A stretch of DNA of 46,955 bases, taken from the NCBI GenBank assembly GCA_030267965.1, contig BRYA01000281.1, forward strand, positions 1 through 46,955, in the 5' to 3' direction. The notes beneath the pieces were generated by a model. The model saw nothing but the letters and a program-made list of their open reading frames with translations. It was not told the DNA's origin and did not search any database. Position 1 is the first letter of the stretch; every line of letters begins with the position of its first letter. Source of the DNA: Triparma columacea. Lineage: Eukaryota > Sar > Bolidophyceae > Parmales > Triparmaceae. The translations under genes and the position numbers were made by a program. Shown here piece after piece: positions 433-30,038 of this stretch.

Positions 433-3400
433 ATGGCCTCTTCCCAACTTCTAAGCTCCTCTGACCCTATCCTCCCTTCCATCCGCCATCTAACCTCCGG
501 TCTCCCTACCGACGACACACCCTGCATCGAGTCCGCCCCCCTATCCCTCGTAATTTCGATAGCCCCCACCCACAATCCCCTCAACTTCTCCGACCACAAT
601 GCGTTTGATCACATGTTCGTAAACGAGATGGAGACCAAGGCTGCGATCGAGCAGCTCTTAGATGAGGGATCCCACTTCGTCGACATGCTGTACACCTTCC
701 GATCAGTGTCAAGGGCTATCCCTATGATCAACGACCAGAACGCCCCAAACAAGGCGGAGCTAAACAGGTCTACCTTCGACGTCCTACGTCCAGAGATTGT
801 CAAGCTCAAGGTAAGAATGAGGGCCGAAAATGAGCAAGGACGCCTATTAACGACGCACTCCTCCACCACTGTTTCCTTTCTCTCTCTCTTCTAACTTTCT
901 TTTGCTCCCCCCTTCCCTCCCTCCCTCCCTCCCTCCCTCCAAGGCCTTCATGGAGTTCCAGGACCTCACTATCCGCACGTTCTGCGGTAACATCCAGCAC
1001 CTCGTTTCCCCTGAAGCCCGAAAGAAGGTGGTCCCTGAGGGCCTGTACGACGCTCTCATCAAGATTGTGGACCTGCTGCAGAAGCTCGACAACCTCAAGG
1101 ACATGAAGGCCAGCCTCAACAACGACTTCTCTCGCTACAAGCGCGCCTTCGGTTCCATCCGCGCTGACCTCCCCGACGGCGACGCCCTCTCTGAGGAGAT
1201 CCACGCCCTCCAGCTCTTCCTCGGGAACCCAGAGCACCCAAAGCAGCTCCTCTTCTACAACCTCAGGGACGCGCTCAAGAGAATCCCGAGCCACGAGGAG
1301 GTGATCTGCGAGATGATCGAGCAGTGCGTAAGCTTCCTCGAGGAGGATAACTACCTTGTCCCGGACGAGAAGTACAGACTCATCAGGGCTGTGCCACACC
1401 TCATGCTACTGGCGGACGGGGAGGAGGACGTGCCGAAGTCATTCAATATCTTCAAGAACAAACTTGTCAACGTTTCGCGCCTACAGAAGGTGAGATTATA
1501 TATGGAAGGACCGGATGGGAAACAATCACAATCTAAACTCCCTCCCCCCCTTACCCCCCTTCCCCCCCCTCCCCCCCTTACCCCCCCTTCCCCCTCATCA
1601 CAGCTCTTCAAGAGGTACCCGTACATCCCCGAGATTGGCGACATGTCCATCAAGATGACTTTTATCCTCGCTAGGGCCCCTCACTACGACCCAGCCACCA
1701 TGGACTCCTACTGGGGCGGTGGGTCCAATGACAACTACGTCGCCCCCCACTACCTCCTGTCCAAGCAGTGGAAGGACTTCCGCGAGGACCACCTCGCTTG
1801 GGCTTCAGACTTTGCCAACGCCATGAACACCTTCGGCTCCAGCACCACTTTCGACAAGTCTTCGCATAACGCAGAGGACTTCGCCATCGTCTCGAACATT
1901 GTCCTCTCCGGCATCAAGCTCGTAAGGGACATGACGTGCGCCGTCACTGAGCAGTCCTGCTGGAAGTTTCAGCACCCAGTGACGGACGAGAACCTCACCA
2001 AGATGGGCCTTGACGTCCCCTCCCTCTGCATGAAGCCTGGGTTCGAGTACGAGCGCGTTGTCCGCTATAACTACTCCGCCCCCGAGCTCTCCGTATTGGT
2101 GGACACTATCTCAATGATCAAGTCCATGTCCTCCCTCCTCCTTAAAAACGAGGCCATCCTCGCCCCCATGATCAGACTCTACGTGCACAGCGAGCTCCAG
2201 AACCTCGTCCAGAACGACCTCGTCCCCGCTCTCCACCGCGCCGACAAAAAGAAGCGGTCCGTCATGACCAACCTCATGCAGATCCGCACCCTCGCCCTCG
2301 ATCTCCTCCAGGGCAAGCGCCAGGACGAGTTCAGGACGTACAAGAGGTCGAACCCCAAGTCCGACGTCCCCGCCCGCGTCGTTGGCCCGGCCCCCACGCA
2401 GCTCCACCTCATGCGCACCATGATCAGGGCACTCTACGACGACAAGTCCGAGGCGAGGGCGTCCCGCGGCTTCTTCTCGAAGCGCGACCTGGACGCGGAA
2501 GAGGCCAAGGTCCTCGAGACCTTCTACAGGACCTCCCTCGCTTTCCCTTACCTCCTCTCCTTCTCAGACACCGTCTCTAAGGTCTCGGACGTTGGGGATA
2601 TATGGTACAGGGAGTTCTACCTCGAGGTCTCGAAGCAGATGAACTCTGGGCTGCCCCAGTTTCCCATTGCCATGTCCCTCCCTTGGATTATCACCGAGCA
2701 CGTCATCAACAACGTCACAGCGGACACCCCTCTCATCGAGGACCTCGCATACACCATGGACGTCTACAACGACGCGGCCAACCGGGCCCTTTATGTGTTC
2801 AACAACCAATACCTGTACGATGAGATCCAGGCGGAGGTGAACCTTGCCTTCGATCAGTTGGTGTTTGCCATTTGCGACGAAACTTACTCGTACCACAAGG
2901 ACCTAGCGGCCACTTTCCTCCTCCCCGACTCCTTCAAGAGTGTGGTCGAAAATGCCATGAAGGCCAAAGTCTTGACCAAGGCCGTCAGGCGTCACTTCAT
3001 CCCCACCAACCAGCGCCACATCCAGCTCCTAGGCCGGTCCATCGATCTCAACCACCTGGTGTCTCAGCACACTTCCAACAAACTGTACTCTGACATTGAG
3101 CTGTGCGTCAAGAGGTACGAGGCATCCGACCTCAGCTTCATCTGCGAGTTCCAATCTACTCTCAATGTCATCCGCACCACTCACAAATACCTCTGCGAGA
3201 GCGGGTTGGCTTTGGACGACTTCGGTTCCATGCTCGACGTTGTCAACGAGTCCGTAGGAGCCACCTCCGTCCGCGGTAGGATCGCCATACACACCCTGAG
3301 GACGCTCGTCACGGACCTCTTCCCAAACTACTCCTACAATATCTACACACAGCGATACGTGCGCTCCCCCATCATGTTCAGACCCACAGACCGGAAGAAG

Positions 3401-20203: not shown

Positions 20204-21031
20204 ATGCCCAGCTCAGCAGTGTACTCTGGCGTAGAGAGCTTCAGGGACAATGATGAACTCACGGAGGTGACTTTTGCAGAGGGAGTGACAACGATTGGCG
20301 AGGGCGCCTTCTGGGGATGCTCCTCCCTCGCAGCCATCACCATCCCAGACGGAGTGACAACGATTGGCGAGGGCGCCTTCTCTGAATGCTCCTCCCTCAC
20401 AGCCATCACAATCCCAGACACAGTGACAACAATTGGCAATGAGGCCTTCTTGGAATGCTCCTCCCTCGCAGCCATCACCATCCCGGACAGAGTGACGAGG
20501 ATTAGCGATCACGCCTTCTCTGGATGCTCCTCCCTCACGGCCATAACCATACCGGACGGAGTGACGACAATTGGCAATGGCGCCTTCTGGGGATGCTCCT
20601 CCCTCACAGCCATCACAATCCCGGACTCAGTGACAAAGATTGGCAATAGCGCCTCCCTCACGGCCATCACCATCCCGGACTCAGTGACAACGATTGGCAA
20701 TCAAGCCTTCAACGGATGCTCCGCTCTGACGAGATTCAGTTTATCTCCTGCCGTCTACGTCGGTTTCTTCTGCTTCTCAAATTGCACCGCCCTAATCACT
20801 GCCGCTGCCACACAAAATATGTCGACTGTCTCGGACCTTCTCCATTCTAGGTGGCACCGCATACGTGAACGCGCCGCCGTTCTGTCGTGCCTCAAGCCAC
20901 CCTGGAATGACGACTTGGAGAACCAGCCCGGATCGGATAATGACGGAGATGAAGTGGTCGCGCTTCAGGGAGCTGCGGCATTCAAGAGGCTCCCGAAGGT
21001 TATGTGGAGAGTTATTCTGGAATTTCTGTAA
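20204..21031 (+). CDS. BspA-type leucine-rich-repeat protein A, 275 aa
   Basis: Intronless. Seven 23-residue BspA/LRR_5-type repeats of form VTTIGxxAFxxCSSLxAITIPDx, then a conserved tail that ends RLPKVMWRVILEFL. The sixth repeat has lost five residues in frame (IGNSASLTAITIP instead of IGNSAFxxCSSLTAITIP). No signal peptide or membrane segment, so probably intracellular. LRR_5 solenoids act in protein binding; the ligand is unknown. The tail includes LLHSRWHRIRE and a DGDEVVALQG block shared with copy D only. First of four tandem paralogues, about 26 kb from the telomere. Confidence 0.88.
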   Translation: MPSSAVYSGVESFRDNDELTEVTFAEGVTTIGEGAFWGCSSLAAITIPDGVTTIGEGAFSECSSLTAITIPDTVTTIGNEAFLECSSLAAITIPDRVTRISDHAFSGCSSLTAITIPDGVTTIGNGAFWGCSSLTAITIPDSVTKIGNSASLTAITIPDSVTTIGNQAFNGCSALTRFSLSPAVYVGFFCFSNCTALITAAATQNMSTVSDLLHSRWHRIRERAAVLSCLKPPWNDDLENQPGSDNDGDEVVALQGAAAFKRLPKVMWRVILEFL

Positions 21032-21462
21032 CTCTAAAATCAATGTTGAACAATGTAGGCAAGAAAGGTGTCATATTCTTTAGCCCTTTTCAGAAGCGAC
21101 GTGCTCATGCTGCTCCCTGAGCTATTTTAGAGTAGCGCTTACAAGTAGAGGAAAAATGAGGAAAATGAGGAAAACCGGAGAGGCTTGGAGGGAGATTTGG
21201 GCAGAATTTGGCAAGAAAAACTCTATTATAAGCTTTAGCTACGTTTCACAACCAACTTAACTCTTCACAATACCAACATCGATAATAATACCTACACCAT
21301 AATCAAACATACTACAGACTTTAGCTAAATTTGGTCCCCAACAAACTACATCGCCCAAATCCCTAACTTTCATTCTCTCCTCCTCTCCATCTAAACATTC
21401 ACGCCATACCCCAGCATACTCTAGCTCGAGTACTGCCATAAAAGATCCTCTTCATCCCTACA
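21032..21462 (+). repeat. Duplicated spacer between LRR genes A and B
   Basis: 431 bp without a gene. It opens with a 3' flank shared after copies A, B and C (AACTCTAAAATCAATGTTGA, then CAGAAGCGACGTGCTCATGC) and continues into the shared leader (CTATTATAAGCTTTAGCTAC). Likely holds terminator of A and promoter of B. Confidence 0.8.
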
Positions 21463-22509
21463 ATGAGTGAATTAGACTTTGCTTATGGTGAGGACTATAG
21501 TGATGACGATGGTGATGAGCATGGTGATGAGTATGGCGATGAGTATGGTGATGACGATAGTGATGACGATAGTTATCACTATGAAGTCCCAGCTGGGTAC
21601 TATCCTCTTCCCAAAACAGCAGTATACTCTGGCGTAGAGAGCTTCAGAGACAACGATGAACTCATGGAGGTGACTTTTGCAGAGGGAGTGACGACGATTG
21701 CCGATGAAACCTTCTGGGGATGCTCCTCCCTCACGGCCATTACCATCCCGGACTCAGTGACGACGATTGGCTGTAGAGCCTTCTTTGCATGCTCCTCCCT
21801 CGTAGCCATTACAATCCCGGACTCAGTGACGACGATAAGCACTGGCACCTTCAACAGATGCTCCTCCCTTGCAGCCATCACAATCCCGGACTCTGTGACG
21901 ACGATAAGCGATTACACCTTCTTCGTTTGCTCCTCCCTCACGGCCATCACCATCCCAGACGGAGTGACGACAATTGGCGAATGGACCTTCTGCGAATGCT
22001 CCTCCCTCACGGCCATCACAATCCCAGTCGGAGTGACGACGATTGGTAGTAACGCCTTCCACGGATGCTCCTCCCTCGCAGCCATCACAATCCCGGACTC
22101 AGTGACAAAGATTGACCAATACGCCTTCTATGGATGCTCCTCCCTCGCAGCCATCACAATCCCGGACTCAGTGACTACGATCGGCCTACGTGCCTTCGAC
22201 GGATGCACCGCCCTGACAAGACTCAGTTTATCTCCTGCCGTCACTATCGGTCCAAACTGCTTCTCAAACTGCACTGCCCTAATCTCTGCCGCTGCCGCTC
22301 AAAATATGCCGACTGTTGAGGACCTCCTCCATTCTAGGTGGCACCGCATACAAGTTTGCGTCACCGTTCTGACCTGCCTCAAGACACTCTTTACTACCCA
22401 AAAAAAGAGGAAGCGACAGGACGGAGGTGAAGCGCAAACACTTGGGGTAACTGCGACACGCAAGAGGCTCCCGAAGGTTATGTGGAGAGTTATTCTGGAA
22501 TTTCTGTAA
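21463..22509 (+). CDS. BspA-type leucine-rich-repeat protein B with acidic N-terminus, 348 aa
   Basis: Intronless. Unlike the other copies it has a 47-residue acidic N-terminal extension built from a short GD(E/D)xGDE repeat (21490-21570 in DNA), then PKTAVYSGVESF, the start-equivalent of the siblings. Eight repeats follow; the pairs at the variable positions differ in every repeat (for example DE/WG, CR/FA, TG/NR, DY/FV). Tail type matches copy C almost exactly (KKRKRQDGGEAQTLGVTATR) and ends RLPKVMWRVILEFL. Function unknown; protein binding inferred from the fold. Confidence 0.87.
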   Translation: MSELDFAYGEDYSDDDGDEHGDEYGDEYGDDDSDDDSYHYEVPAGYYPLPKTAVYSGVESFRDNDELMEVTFAEGVTTIADETFWGCSSLTAITIPDSVTTIGCRAFFACSSLVAITIPDSVTTISTGTFNRCSSLAAITIPDSVTTISDYTFFVCSSLTAITIPDGVTTIGEWTFCECSSLTAITIPVGVTTIGSNAFHGCSSLAAITIPDSVTKIDQYAFYGCSSLAAITIPDSVTTIGLRAFDGCTALTRLSLSPAVTIGPNCFSNCTALISAAAAQNMPTVEDLLHSRWHRIQVCVTVLTCLKTLFTTQKKRKRQDGGEAQTLGVTATRKRLPKVMWRVILEFL

Positions 22510-22926
22510 CTCTAAAATGAATGTTGAACAATGTAGGCAAGAAAAGTGTCATATTCTTTAGCTCTTTTCAGAAGCGACATGCTCATGCTGCTCCCTGAGC
22601 TATGCATATTTTAGAGTAGAGAAAAATAAGGAAAATGGGAAAAAGGCCTTGAGGTGGGAGATTTGGGCAGAATTTGGCAAGAAAAACTCTATTATAAGCT
22701 TTAGCTACCATCCTAAGTCTTCACAATACCAACAACGATAATAGTATCTATAATATCTACACCATAATCTAAAATATTGCAGGGTTTAGCTAAATTTGGT
22801 CCCAAAAAACTATTCGTCCACACACCTAACTTTCAATCTCCTCCTCTCCATCAAAACATTCACGCCATACCCTAACTCAAGCGCTGTTTGGACTTCTTCT
22901 TTCATCCTTCCCAAATCCTTCCCAAA
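22510..22926 (+). repeat. Duplicated spacer between LRR genes B and C
   Basis: 417 bp, homologous to the other two spacers in the same order (3' flank, AAAATGGGAAAAAGG tract, TTGGCAAGAAAAACTC, leader). No additional gene. Confidence 0.8.
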
Positions 22927-23967
22927 ATGCCCAAATCAGCAGTATACTCTGGCATAGAGACATTCATTGATGATCATGAACTCACAGAGGTGACTTTTGC
23001 AAAGGGAGTGACAACGATTGGCGAAGGCGCCTTCTTGAGATGCTCCTCCCTCATGGCCATCACAATCCCAGAAGGAGTGACGAAGATTGGCAAGGGCGCC
23101 TTCGAAGGATGCTCCTCCCTCATGGCCATCACAATCCCAATTGGAGTGACTACGATTGGCAACGACGTCTTCTTGAGATGCTCCTCCCTCGCAGCCATCA
23201 CAATCCCAGAAGGAGTGACGACGATTGGCAAAAGAGCCTTTTGCGGATGCTCCATCCTCGCAGCCATCACAATCCCGAACGGAGTGACGACGATAAGCTA
23301 TGGCGCCTTTGCGAGTTGCTCCGCCCTCACGGCCATCACCATCCCGGACGGAGTGACGACGATTGACGAATGCGCCTTCCAGGAATGCTCCTCCCTCGCA
23401 GCCATCACAATCCCGGACGGAGTGACGATGATTTGCAGAGGCGCCTTCGAAATATGCTCCTCCCTCACGGCCATCACAATCCCGGAAGGAGTGACGACGA
23501 TTGGCAATCACGCCTTCTACGGATGCTCCTCCCTCGCAGCCATCACCATCCCGGACGGAGTGACGATGATTGGCAATAGCGCCTTCTACGAATGCTCCTC
23601 CCTCGCAGCCATCACAATCCCGGACTCTGTGACGACGATTTGCCACAACGCCTTCAACGGATGCACCGCCCTGACAAGACTCAGTTTATCTCCTGCCGTC
23701 TCCATTGGTTTCGACTGCTTCTCAAACTGCACTGCCCTAACTTCTGCCGCTGCCTCACAAAATATGTTGACTGTTGAGGACCTCCTCCATTCTAGATGGC
23801 ACCGCATACAAGCACGCGTCACCGTTCTGACCTGCCTCAAGACACTCTTTACTACCCAAAAAAAGAGGAAGCGACAGGACGGAGGTGAAGCGCAAACACT
23901 TGGGGTAACTGCAACACGCAAGAGGCTCCCAAAGGTTATGTGGAGAGTTATTCTGGAATTTCTGTAA
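22927..23967 (+). CDS. BspA-type leucine-rich-repeat protein C, 346 aa
   Basis: Intronless. The start is the ATG at 22927 in CCCAAAATGCCCAA, the same context as copy D; an upstream in-frame TTG is not used. Ten repeats of 23 residues. The last repeat and tail are nearly identical in DNA to copy B, while the first nine repeats differ in their variable residues. Ends RLPKVMWRVILEFL. No signal peptide. Confidence 0.87.
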   Translation: MPKSAVYSGIETFIDDHELTEVTFAKGVTTIGEGAFLRCSSLMAITIPEGVTKIGKGAFEGCSSLMAITIPIGVTTIGNDVFLRCSSLAAITIPEGVTTIGKRAFCGCSILAAITIPNGVTTISYGAFASCSALTAITIPDGVTTIDECAFQECSSLAAITIPDGVTMICRGAFEICSSLTAITIPEGVTTIGNHAFYGCSSLAAITIPDGVTMIGNSAFYECSSLAAITIPDSVTTICHNAFNGCTALTRLSLSPAVSIGFDCFSNCTALTSAAASQNMLTVEDLLHSRWHRIQARVTVLTCLKTLFTTQKKRKRQDGGEAQTLGVTATRKRLPKVMWRVILEFL

Positions 23968-24397
23968 CTCTAAAATCAATTTTGAACAATGTAGGCAAGA
24001 AAGGTGTCATATTCTTTAGCTCTTTTCAGAAGCGACAAGCTCATGCTGCTCCCTGAGCTATTTTAGAGTAGCGCTTACAAGTTGAGGAAAAATGAGGAAA
24101 ATGAGGAAAACTGGAGAGGCTTGGAGGGATTTGGGCAGAATTTGGCAAGAAAAACTCTATTATAAGCTTTAGCTACGTTTCACAACCAACCTAACTCTTC
24201 ACAATACCAACAACGATAATAATACCTACACCATAATCAAACATACTACAGACTTTAGCTAAATTTGGTCCCCAAAAAACTACATCGCCCAAATCCCTAA
24301 CTTTCATTCTCCTCCTCTCCATCTAAACATTCACGCCATACCCTAGCTCAAGCGCTGTTAGGACTTCTTCTTTCATCCTTCCCAAATCCTTCCCAAA
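23968..24397 (+). repeat. Duplicated spacer between LRR genes C and D
   Basis: 430 bp, most similar to the A-B spacer (both have GAGCTATTTTAGAGTAGCGC and the (AAAATGAGG) pair). Ends with the GACTTCTTCTTTCATCCTTC leader also found before copy C. No additional gene. Confidence 0.8.
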
Positions 24398-25453
24398 ATG
24401 CCCAACTCAGCAGTATACTCTGGCAAAGAGAGATTCACTTATGATAGTGAACTCACAGAGGTAATTTTTGCAAAGGGAGTGACGTCGATTGGTGAGGGCG
24501 CCTTCGACGGATGCTCCTCCCTCGCAGCCATCACAATCCCGGACGAAGTGACGATCATTGGCAAAGACGCCTTCTCTGGATGCTCCTCCCTCACGGCCAT
24601 CACAATCCCGGACGGAGTGACGATAATTGGCAATGGCGCCTTCCACGACTGCTCCTCCCTCACGGCCATCACCATCCCAGATAGAGTAACGACGATTGGC
24701 AATTACGCCTTCTCCAAATGCTCCTCCCTCACAGCCATCACCATCCCAGATGGAGTGACAATGATTAGCAAACACGCCTTCTATGACTGCTCCTCCCTCG
24801 CAGCCATTACCATCCAGGACTCAGTGACAACGATTAGCACGTTTGCCTTCTGCGGATGCTCCTCCCTCACAGCCATCACAATCCCGGACGGAGTGACAAA
24901 GATTGACAAACACGCCTTTGCAAGATGCTCCTCACTCACGGCCATCACCATCCCGGACGGAGTGACGTTGATTGGTGAATACGCCTTCTTGAGATGCTCC
25001 TTCACGGCCATCACCATCCCAGACGGAGTGACAACGATTGAATATTGCGCCTTCTACGAATGCTCCTCCCTCGCAGCCATCACAATCCCGGACTCTGTGA
25101 CGACGATTGGCCGTTCCGCCTTCAACGGATGCACCGCCCTGACAAGACTCAGTTTATCTCCTGCCGTCTCCGTCGGTGAAGACTGCTTCTTGGACTGCAC
25201 TGCCCTAATCTCTGCCGCTGCCGATCAAAATATGTCGACTGTCGAGGACCTCCTCAATTCTAGGTGGCACCGCATACGTGACCGCGTCACCGTTCTGACC
25301 TGCCTCAAGACGCTCTTGGAGGAACAGCCCAGGAGATTGGATGGACTGAAGCGGAAGCGCCTTGATGGAGATGAAGTGGTTGCGCTTCAGGGAACTAAGG
25401 CATTCAAGAGGCTCCCGAAAGTTATGTGGAGAGTTATTCTGGAATTTCTGTGA
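24398..25453 (+). CDS. BspA-type leucine-rich-repeat protein D, 351 aa
   Basis: Intronless, ten repeats. One repeat has a 3-nt loss (CSFTAITIP for CSSLTAITIP). Tail has the DGDEVVALQGTKAFKRLPK form shared with copy A, not the form of the adjacent copy C. Ends in TGA, unlike the TAA of A-C, and homology to the shared 3' flank fades after about 20 bp, marking the right edge of the array near 25480. Confidence 0.87.
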   Translation: MPNSAVYSGKERFTYDSELTEVIFAKGVTSIGEGAFDGCSSLAAITIPDEVTIIGKDAFSGCSSLTAITIPDGVTIIGNGAFHDCSSLTAITIPDRVTTIGNYAFSKCSSLTAITIPDGVTMISKHAFYDCSSLAAITIQDSVTTISTFAFCGCSSLTAITIPDGVTKIDKHAFARCSSLTAITIPDGVTLIGEYAFLRCSFTAITIPDGVTTIEYCAFYECSSLAAITIPDSVTTIGRSAFNGCTALTRLSLSPAVSVGEDCFLDCTALISAAADQNMSTVEDLLNSRWHRIRDRVTVLTCLKTLLEEQPRRLDGLKRKRLDGDEVVALQGTKAFKRLPKVMWRVILEFL

Positions 25454-29444: not shown

Positions 29445-29595
29445 AGTTCGGGATGATTAGGAAGGTAGAGACGCCAAATGGAATGACAGTTTGTAGTTTT
29501 TTTGGGCAGTGTTTTGGAAGTGACTGGAAGAGACCTTTCAGAAGTGGGGTAATGTAGAAATCATATCAAAAAATCGAGAAAGCAGGGCAATCTTA

Positions 29596-29798
29596 GCTTT
29601 TGTGGCGCGTGAGTTACCCCCATCAATCACCTACCATCGAGTCTATATTCTTACCGCACTCTCTCTCTCCCCCTATAGAATGGATAGCGCGTGTAAGTTT
29701 CCTCCCACCTCCCTGTTAATGTGTTGGCCCTCTTCTTACCCTTCTACTTCAGCTGACTTCTAATCAGAAAGTTGCAGGTTCGAGTCCTGCCTAAGGCG
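29596..29798 (+). tRNA. tRNA-Arg(UCU) interrupted by two GT-AG introns
   Basis: Exons 29596-29608 (13 nt), 29679-29692 (14 nt) and 29753-29798 (46 nt) add to 73 nt. Joined, they form a full cloverleaf: acceptor GCTTTTG with CTAAGGC (one U-U mismatch at 6:67 and one G-U), D stem GCGC/GCGC, D loop AATGGATA with G18G19, anticodon stem TCTGA/TCAGA (all paired), loop CTTCTAA with U33 and anticodon UCU, variable AAGTT, T stem GCAGG/CCTGC, T loop TTCGAGT, discriminator G. Intron 1 (29609-29678, 70 nt) is GTGAGT...CTATAG, intron 2 (29693-29752, 60 nt) is GTAAGT...CTTCAG; intron 1 falls between 13 and 14, intron 2 between 27 and 28. There is no intron at the canonical 37/38 site. Both introns match the mRNA introns of neighbouring genes in length, donor and pyrimidine-rich acceptor. 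The B box is intact; intron 1 splits the A box. A degenerate, inactive copy is possible, but the perfect stems argue against it. Confidence 0.85.
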
Positions 29799-29802
29799 TT
29801 GA

Positions 29803-29811
29803 TTTTTTTTT
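29803..29811 (+). terminator. T9 run, probable RNA polymerase III terminator
   Basis: Nine consecutive T on the coding strand begin 5 nt after the tRNA discriminator base, the normal place and form of a Pol III stop signal. It supports Pol III transcription of the interrupted tRNA gene. Confidence 0.75.
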
Positions 29812-30038
29812 GCACGTGCGCGCACCAACCAAGCGAGAGCTGCACGCTGGCAAAGTTTGAGAGTGATTGGGGCCAGTTAAACTTTTTTTTTGACCAGATT
29901 TTGCCCCCAACGCGAAGAGAGGAGCGGCTGGCGAGACTGATGCGGAGTGAAGGAAAATAAATAAGAGTTGCTATTCAAATCTTGCACGCAGGCATTTATT
30001 ATCGTTCAACCCATACCACCTCAAGATGACGTCGTTGT

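Follow-up and report, generated by a model that had tools for sequence, protein, structure and literature searches.

A tRNA-Arg(UCU) gene of Triparma columacea split by two GT-AG introns, probably removed by the spliceosome

The window, by which we mean the whole stretch of 46,955 nucleotides of Triparma columacea DNA that was analysed, carries a tRNA-Arg(UCU) gene whose three exons are separated by two GT-AG introns (Table 1). Excision of both introns leaves a 73-nt tRNA, with intron coordinates exactly those given by a first-pass annotation made from the letters alone, and ARAGORN called the spliced form tRNA-Arg(tct) across all 73 nt; the unspliced gene gave no ARAGORN call with the intron option on or off. 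Read from the sequence, the D (4/4), anticodon (5/5), and T (5/5) stems are completely paired, as the annotation had stated, but the acceptor stem, a flaw it left unmentioned, has six of seven pairs, one of them G-U, and a U6-U67 mismatch. The exon lengths agree with its placement of the introns after positions 13 and 27, away from the canonical 37/38 site. The longest T run within the two introns is T3. Because the gene is split, the raw window gave no match with ARAGORN or with Rfam at the gathering score; at a permissive threshold, Rfam aligned the 3' part of the gene only. Group I and group II self-splicing introns were rejected: no such Rfam family reached the gathering score in the window or gave a match at E ≤ 1 in 29500-30000, the catalytic core was not found, and lengths of 60 and 70 nt are insufficient for such introns. 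At 29899-29951, a c-di-GMP riboswitch family matched with 20.7 bits (gathering score, 40), which was dismissed as chance. Elsewhere in the window, at 20204-25453, four adjacent open reading frames encode similar repeat proteins with CSSLTAITIPDGVTTIG-like repeats, apparently a tandem family.

Table 1. Features of the window at the split tRNA gene and in the CYFIP gene
Feature	Position	Strand	Remarks
tRNA-Arg(UCU) exon 1	29596-29608	+	tRNA positions 1-13
GT-AG intron 1, 70 nt, GTGAGT...TATAG	29609-29678	+	Site 13/14
tRNA-Arg(UCU) exon 2	29679-29692	+	tRNA positions 14-27
GT-AG intron 2, 60 nt, GTAAGT...TTCAG	29693-29752	+	Site 27/28
tRNA-Arg(UCU) exon 3	29753-29798	+	tRNA positions 28-73; anticodon TCT at 29759-29761
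Branch-point-like motif of intron 1, TTCTTACC	29648-29655	+	A 25 nt from intron end
Branch-point-like motif of intron 2, TTCTTACC	29733-29740	+	A 14 nt from intron end
T9, likely Pol III terminator	29803-29811	+	T7-T9 lies 3' of 12/12 split tRNA rows
Upstream box AAATCATATCAAAAAATC, likely external promoter element	29558-29575	+	CAAAAAATC pattern
Downstream element CTGGCAAAGTTTGAGAGTGATT, possibly a displaced B-box-like promoter element	29847-29868	+	20 genome places
CYFIP mRNA intron, GTGAGA...CTTAC...CACAG	1490-1603	+	Missing from CYFIP1 (3p8c) and transcriptome-derived protein P0002
Second CYFIP mRNA intron, GTAAGA...CTAAC...CCAAG	811-943	+	Flanking exons joined in P0002

The genome was searched as a fragmentary assembly of 37.85 Mb in 789 contigs. 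The spliced tRNA-Arg(UCU) matched only its own 3' exon there, so no intact copy was found; the annotation had proposed looking for one. A covariance search for tRNA, with 63 of 675 candidates scored, returned 22 places at E ≤ 10, of which 12 were full length and above the cut-off. Several of the weak partial matches correspond to other split tRNAs, and at least one intact tRNA, a Gly on contig C494, was missed. Given this miss and the 789 contigs, an intact tRNA-Arg(UCU) elsewhere is possible.

The locus singled out by the first-pass annotation is real, but it is one case of a pattern that recurs in ten further tRNA genes and in the U6 gene. A 20-nt motif noticed downstream of some of these tRNA matches occurs at 19 places in the genome (the reversed pattern at none), each directly behind a tRNA gene; two near-identical Val copies reduce these to 18 distinct genes. 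Ten are split by GT-AG introns (Arg UCU, Arg CCU, Leu UAG, Leu CAA, Thr CGU, Gln UUG, Lys UUU, Trp CCA, Met CAU, and Val AAC) and six are uninterrupted (Ser UGA, Leu UAA, Leu CAG, Thr UGU, Gly CCC, and Ile UAU). The remaining two, Val UAC and a gene that is Pro AGG in our reading but Leu UAG according to ARAGORN, have an intron at 37/38 only. An 11th split gene came from the upstream box described below: the single place read from upstream-box picks alone, on contig C663, is a tRNA-Arg(UCG) gene with two GT-AG introns, in line with the prediction from that box, and has no downstream element at ≤3 mismatches.

Together the 11 genes hold 15 GT-AG introns, a tally that excludes the second Val copy and two Pro(CGG) copies. 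Numbered from exon lengths, they occupy 13 tRNA sites, mostly in the D arm and T loop: 5/6, 9/10, 11/12, 12/13, 13/14 (twice), 14/15, 15/16, 24/25 (twice), 25/26, 27/28, 57/58, 58/59, and 59/60. All 15 thus lie outside position 37/38. After splicing, ARAGORN without the intron option accepted 10 of the 11 genes; Met was accepted with the option, which it needs because it also holds a canonical intron of 37 nt. Before splicing, none of 12 rows was called without the option; with it 5 of 12 were, with introns placed elsewhere and, in three, a different anticodon. When the 11 spliced tRNAs were searched against the genome, the 17 matches comprised the split genes and weaker paralogues at 80 to 88% identity (Lys CUU twice, Leu CAG), with no intact copy of any.

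Several other loci were recorded along the way. On contig C54, two tRNA-Pro(CGG) genes stand in tandem, each interrupted in the T stem by a GT-AG intron of its own (148 nt in one, 108 nt in the other); both copies read as tRNA-Pro once spliced, and no upstream box was seen. Besides its GT-AG intron, the tRNA-Trp(CCA) gene includes a stretch that is either a long variable arm or a canonical intron of 11 nt. The common upstream box is missing from four intact and identical copies of tRNA-Arg(CCG), and a decayed copy lies within an apparent mRNA intron; these are perhaps a tRNA-derived repeat. T-arm pattern matches on contigs C9 and C126 were judged by eye to be chance. The element search gave no match in bacterial or archaeal contigs; its one viral match, which falls within an open reading frame on an IMG/VR contig and showed no tRNA, was rejected. 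The split-Arg pattern had no match in viral contigs.

With the two introns of U6, the set comprises 17 introns of 59 to 80 nt. All are GT-AG as chosen, their boundaries having initially been picked by eye on that basis, and 16 of 17 have a GTRAGY donor. A branch motif, yT(A/T)AC (CTTAC/CTAAC-like), with its A 12 to 45 nt from the intron end, is found in 15 of 17, being missing from Thr intron 1 and Val intron 1; in shuffled introns the mean was 5.33 and the maximum 12, and none of 2,000 shuffles reached 15. In four introns the A is just 13 to 15 nt from the end. For comparison, nine predicted mRNA introns of the window (64 to 115 nt) were picked by eye from 46 candidates with a required GTRNG donor; 37 were discarded, being either coding sequence in frame or uncertain. 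Eight of those kept were intron-like and needed splicing, and the ninth, in CYFIP at 1490-1603, is the sole one checked against homologous proteins (over 501 residues, the CYFIP protein is 91% identical to that of Triparma retinervis and 86% to a Bolidom-labelled transcriptome protein). The motif is present in seven of these nine (shuffle mean, 1.95; 1 of 2,000 reached 7); it was no criterion in the picking, though the sequences were visible at the time. In donors, branch-like motif, length, and pyrimidine richness, the tRNA introns therefore look spliceosomal, as the annotation had proposed.

It had also set them beside the ectopic tRNA introns of red algae and nucleomorphs, which it knew as being of the bulge-helix-bulge (BHB) type. 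The 4-bp central helix between two 3-nt bulges at the splice sites is complete in 1 of 17 introns (Met) and, in the other orientation, in none of 17, and about 2% per intron is expected by chance, so the count is at chance level; the two Arg(UCU) introns have one and two of the four pairs. BHB introns were accordingly rejected as a class for the GT-AG set. The canonical introns of the same genome score four, three, and three of four pairs, and are a weak control, since several placements were tried for each.

The tRNA could in principle be a product of choosing where to cut. Pairs of 50- to 95-nt stretches running from GTRAGY or GTACGY to AG were excised on both strands, with success defined as a tRNA spanning both junctions. 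Of 332 such combinations in the window, Arg(UCU) was the only success; shuffled sequence from the window and from two loci yielded none in 893. The same scan recovered Thr (1 of 2 joins), Arg UCG (1 of 2), and Val (2 of 19 joins in each copy, with two acceptors). Single excision at 17 loci recovered all six single-intron genes among 347 joins; no tRNA came from 388 joins of the window, whose gene requires a double excision, or from 3,360 shuffled joins.

U6 is a Pol III gene in nearly all eukaryotes. Above the family cut-off, the genome has one U6 gene (contig C272, L092-L094), and it too contains two GT-AG introns. The first lies inside the 5' hairpin, directly behind the CUUCGG loop, and the second falls between GATGACA and CGCAAA, in the region of the catalytic internal stem-loop; splicing restores the CTTCGG/ATTAAT hairpin, which folds, and the continuous GATGACA-CGCAAA sequence. 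CAGCAAAAAACC, similar to the upstream box of the tRNA genes, precedes the gene, which is flanked by sequences related to that box and to the GTTTGAG element. As markers of a spliceosome, both U6 and PRP8 (PROCN domain) were found in the genome; U2 snRNA gave no genome match at E ≤ 1, perhaps because its gene is also split.

Putative transcription elements are shared among these genes. Of 25 tRNA rows examined, 18 carry CAAAAAATC (≤1 mismatch) in the 75 nt before the tRNA: 17 have it at a distance of 25 to 57 nt and one at 71 nt. It was not seen at the Pro/Leu gene, at Trp (where a similar A run is more extended), at one Lys(CUU) row, or at the four Arg(CCG) rows. When lengthened, the box pattern matched 133 places at ≤3 mismatches, against 59 for the reversed control. 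The downstream element was beside a tRNA gene at 19 of its 20 genome places, against one place for a reversed pattern in this looser search; at the other, on contig C208, it follows a T8 run, and visual inspection of the preceding 600 nt showed no tRNA. The GTTTGAG element is present in 10 of the 11 split genes, loci that were mostly found through it. A block about 45 nt behind the T run, GAGAGGAGCAYGCTGGCAAAGTTTGAGAGTGATTGGAG (window 29812-29880, loci L024-L042), is well conserved across 18 aligned genes, themselves gathered by its 20-nt core, and is possibly an external promoter or terminator element. Behind each split tRNA row, the T7-T9 run begins at a distance of 1 to 21 nt. Within some introns there are T4-T5 runs, with a maximum of five in Thr and Gln, and these could stop Pol III in some organisms.

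The A box of Arg(UCU) is split, and 10 of the 15 introns fall inside an A or B box as these are usually delimited. The upstream box is found at split tRNA genes and at most of the intact ones, so the internal boxes may have been relieved of their role by a promoter elsewhere; we infer that the promoter lies outside these genes, which would let introns enter the boxes unpunished. The Pol III promoter of yeast SNR6 combines an upstream box with a B-box-like element past the terminator. The layout here is the same, with elements that are putative; unlike that of SNR6, it would serve tRNA genes.

On this sequence evidence, we consider it highly probable that the two GT-AG introns of tRNA-Arg(UCU) are removed by the major spliceosome from what is probably a Pol III precursor, the exons forming the 73-nt tRNA. 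Transcription would be driven by external elements, the CAAAAAATC box upstream and, for most split genes, the GTTTGAG element downstream, so that introns can break the internal A and B boxes, and would end at the T run. The signals GTRAGY, CTTAC, and AG would be read by U1, U2, and U6 in the same way as in mRNA; RNase P and RNase Z would then trim the ends, and true 37/38 introns would be left for the tRNA endonuclease. The gene structures, their signals, the shared elements, and the lack of intact copies in the searches run were observed in this analysis; that Pol III transcribes the genes, that the spliceosome removes the introns, that the steps follow in this order, and that the tRNAs function is what we infer from them.

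Removal by the tRNA splicing endonuclease, with incidental GT-AG ends, is the obvious alternative. The genome encodes the catalytic domain of this enzyme and has introns at 37/38 for it to cut (Val UAC, Met CAU, and the Pro AGG/Leu UAG gene), the GT-AG intron of Met can form the 4-bp helix, and ectopic introns of the Guillardia nucleomorph are described as often having no defined BHB (PMC3978253). The GT-AG introns, unlike the canonical ones, sit off 37/38, Met having one of each, and their helix count is at chance, against four, three, and three of four pairs, over several placements, for the canonical introns. An endonuclease has no need of a GTRAGY donor, branch motif, and pyrimidine tract, yet these are common to the set, U6 included, and U6 is not known to be a substrate of the tRNA endonuclease. 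We therefore regard this explanation as very unlikely. It would resemble the situation in Cyanidioschyzon merolae, where, as in T. columacea, most tRNA genes are described as disrupted, outside 37/38 and with several introns per gene (PMC3978253, PMC9602550); the introns of C. merolae form a BHB for the endonuclease, in contrast to the spliceosomal signals found here.

The tRNAs might instead be made by Pol II within longer RNAs, spliced there, and trimmed later. Spliceosomal splicing is normally coupled to Pol II, and both this and the T4-T5 runs inside some introns count in favour of such a route; T7-T9 behind all 12 split tRNA rows and the similar box upstream of U6, a Pol III gene nearly everywhere, count against it and make it improbable. 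The split copies might also be dead, with intact tRNAs in unassembled sequence, as the 789 contigs and the intact Gly missed with 63 of 675 covariance candidates scored would allow. This would have to hold for 11 isoacceptors that have no intact copy, that all yield tRNAs when spliced, and that would read about 18% of the 4,677 codons counted in the window (AGA and AGG make up 177 of its 250 arginine codons), and the only U6 gene above the cut-off is split as well; we think it most improbable. The two Val copies differ in 0 of 74 exon, 5 of 128 intron, and 1 of 80 upstream columns, and being nearly the same upstream too, they tell little about dead or live genes.

The introns also bear traces of their history. 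Intron 1 of Arg(UCU) and that of Arg(UCG) occupy the same site and differ in 8 of 72 alignment columns, whereas the second introns are at different sites, which could reflect gene conversion or else one common gain followed by independent ones. U6 intron 1 and Val intron 2 are alike in 59 of 75 columns, beyond the signals; 2 of 5,000 shuffles reach this, and since 136 intron pairs were compared, the resemblance is only suggestive after correction. Tentatively, and with some doubt, we suggest that in this algal lineage the Pol III promoters of tRNA and U6 genes shifted to external positions and that spliceosomal introns, some perhaps mobile between Pol III genes, then invaded these genes.

The U6 gene of Rhodosporidium reportedly contains introns of mRNA type, as does the U6 gene described here, with its two. 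Fission yeast U6 is described as having an mRNA-type intron that is spliced (PMC10484740), and the spliceosome can therefore act on a Pol III product. The first-pass annotation, which knew of no established case of spliceosomal removal from a Pol III transcript, was mistaken to that extent, but a tRNA as the substrate does appear to be new. Unlike in those U6 cases, at least 11 tRNA genes are split here as well, at many sites. No report of spliceosomal introns in tRNA genes was found among the titles and opening abstract lines of the open-licence PMC papers listed, and tRNA introns removed by the spliceosome are likely new. A 2026 review keeps tRNA splicing apart from the spliceosome (PMC13149111), and the text of the Parmales genome paper contains neither "intron" nor "splic", its methods mentioning tRNA as tRNAscan-SE predictions (PMC10328945).

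In the textbook view, eukaryotic tRNA splicing is a pathway of protein enzymes apart from the spliceosome. At least 11 isoacceptors found only as GT-AG-split genes, including those that read AGA and AGG, would break this division. If the spliceosome does remove these introns, Pol III transcripts can be routine spliceosome substrates, and intron gain in noncoding genes and the coupling of splicing to Pol II become directly testable. Standard tRNA finders can miss genes split in this way. Should the promoter shift and intron invasion prove true, much of translation, and splicing itself via U6, would hang on the action of the spliceosome on Pol III transcripts.
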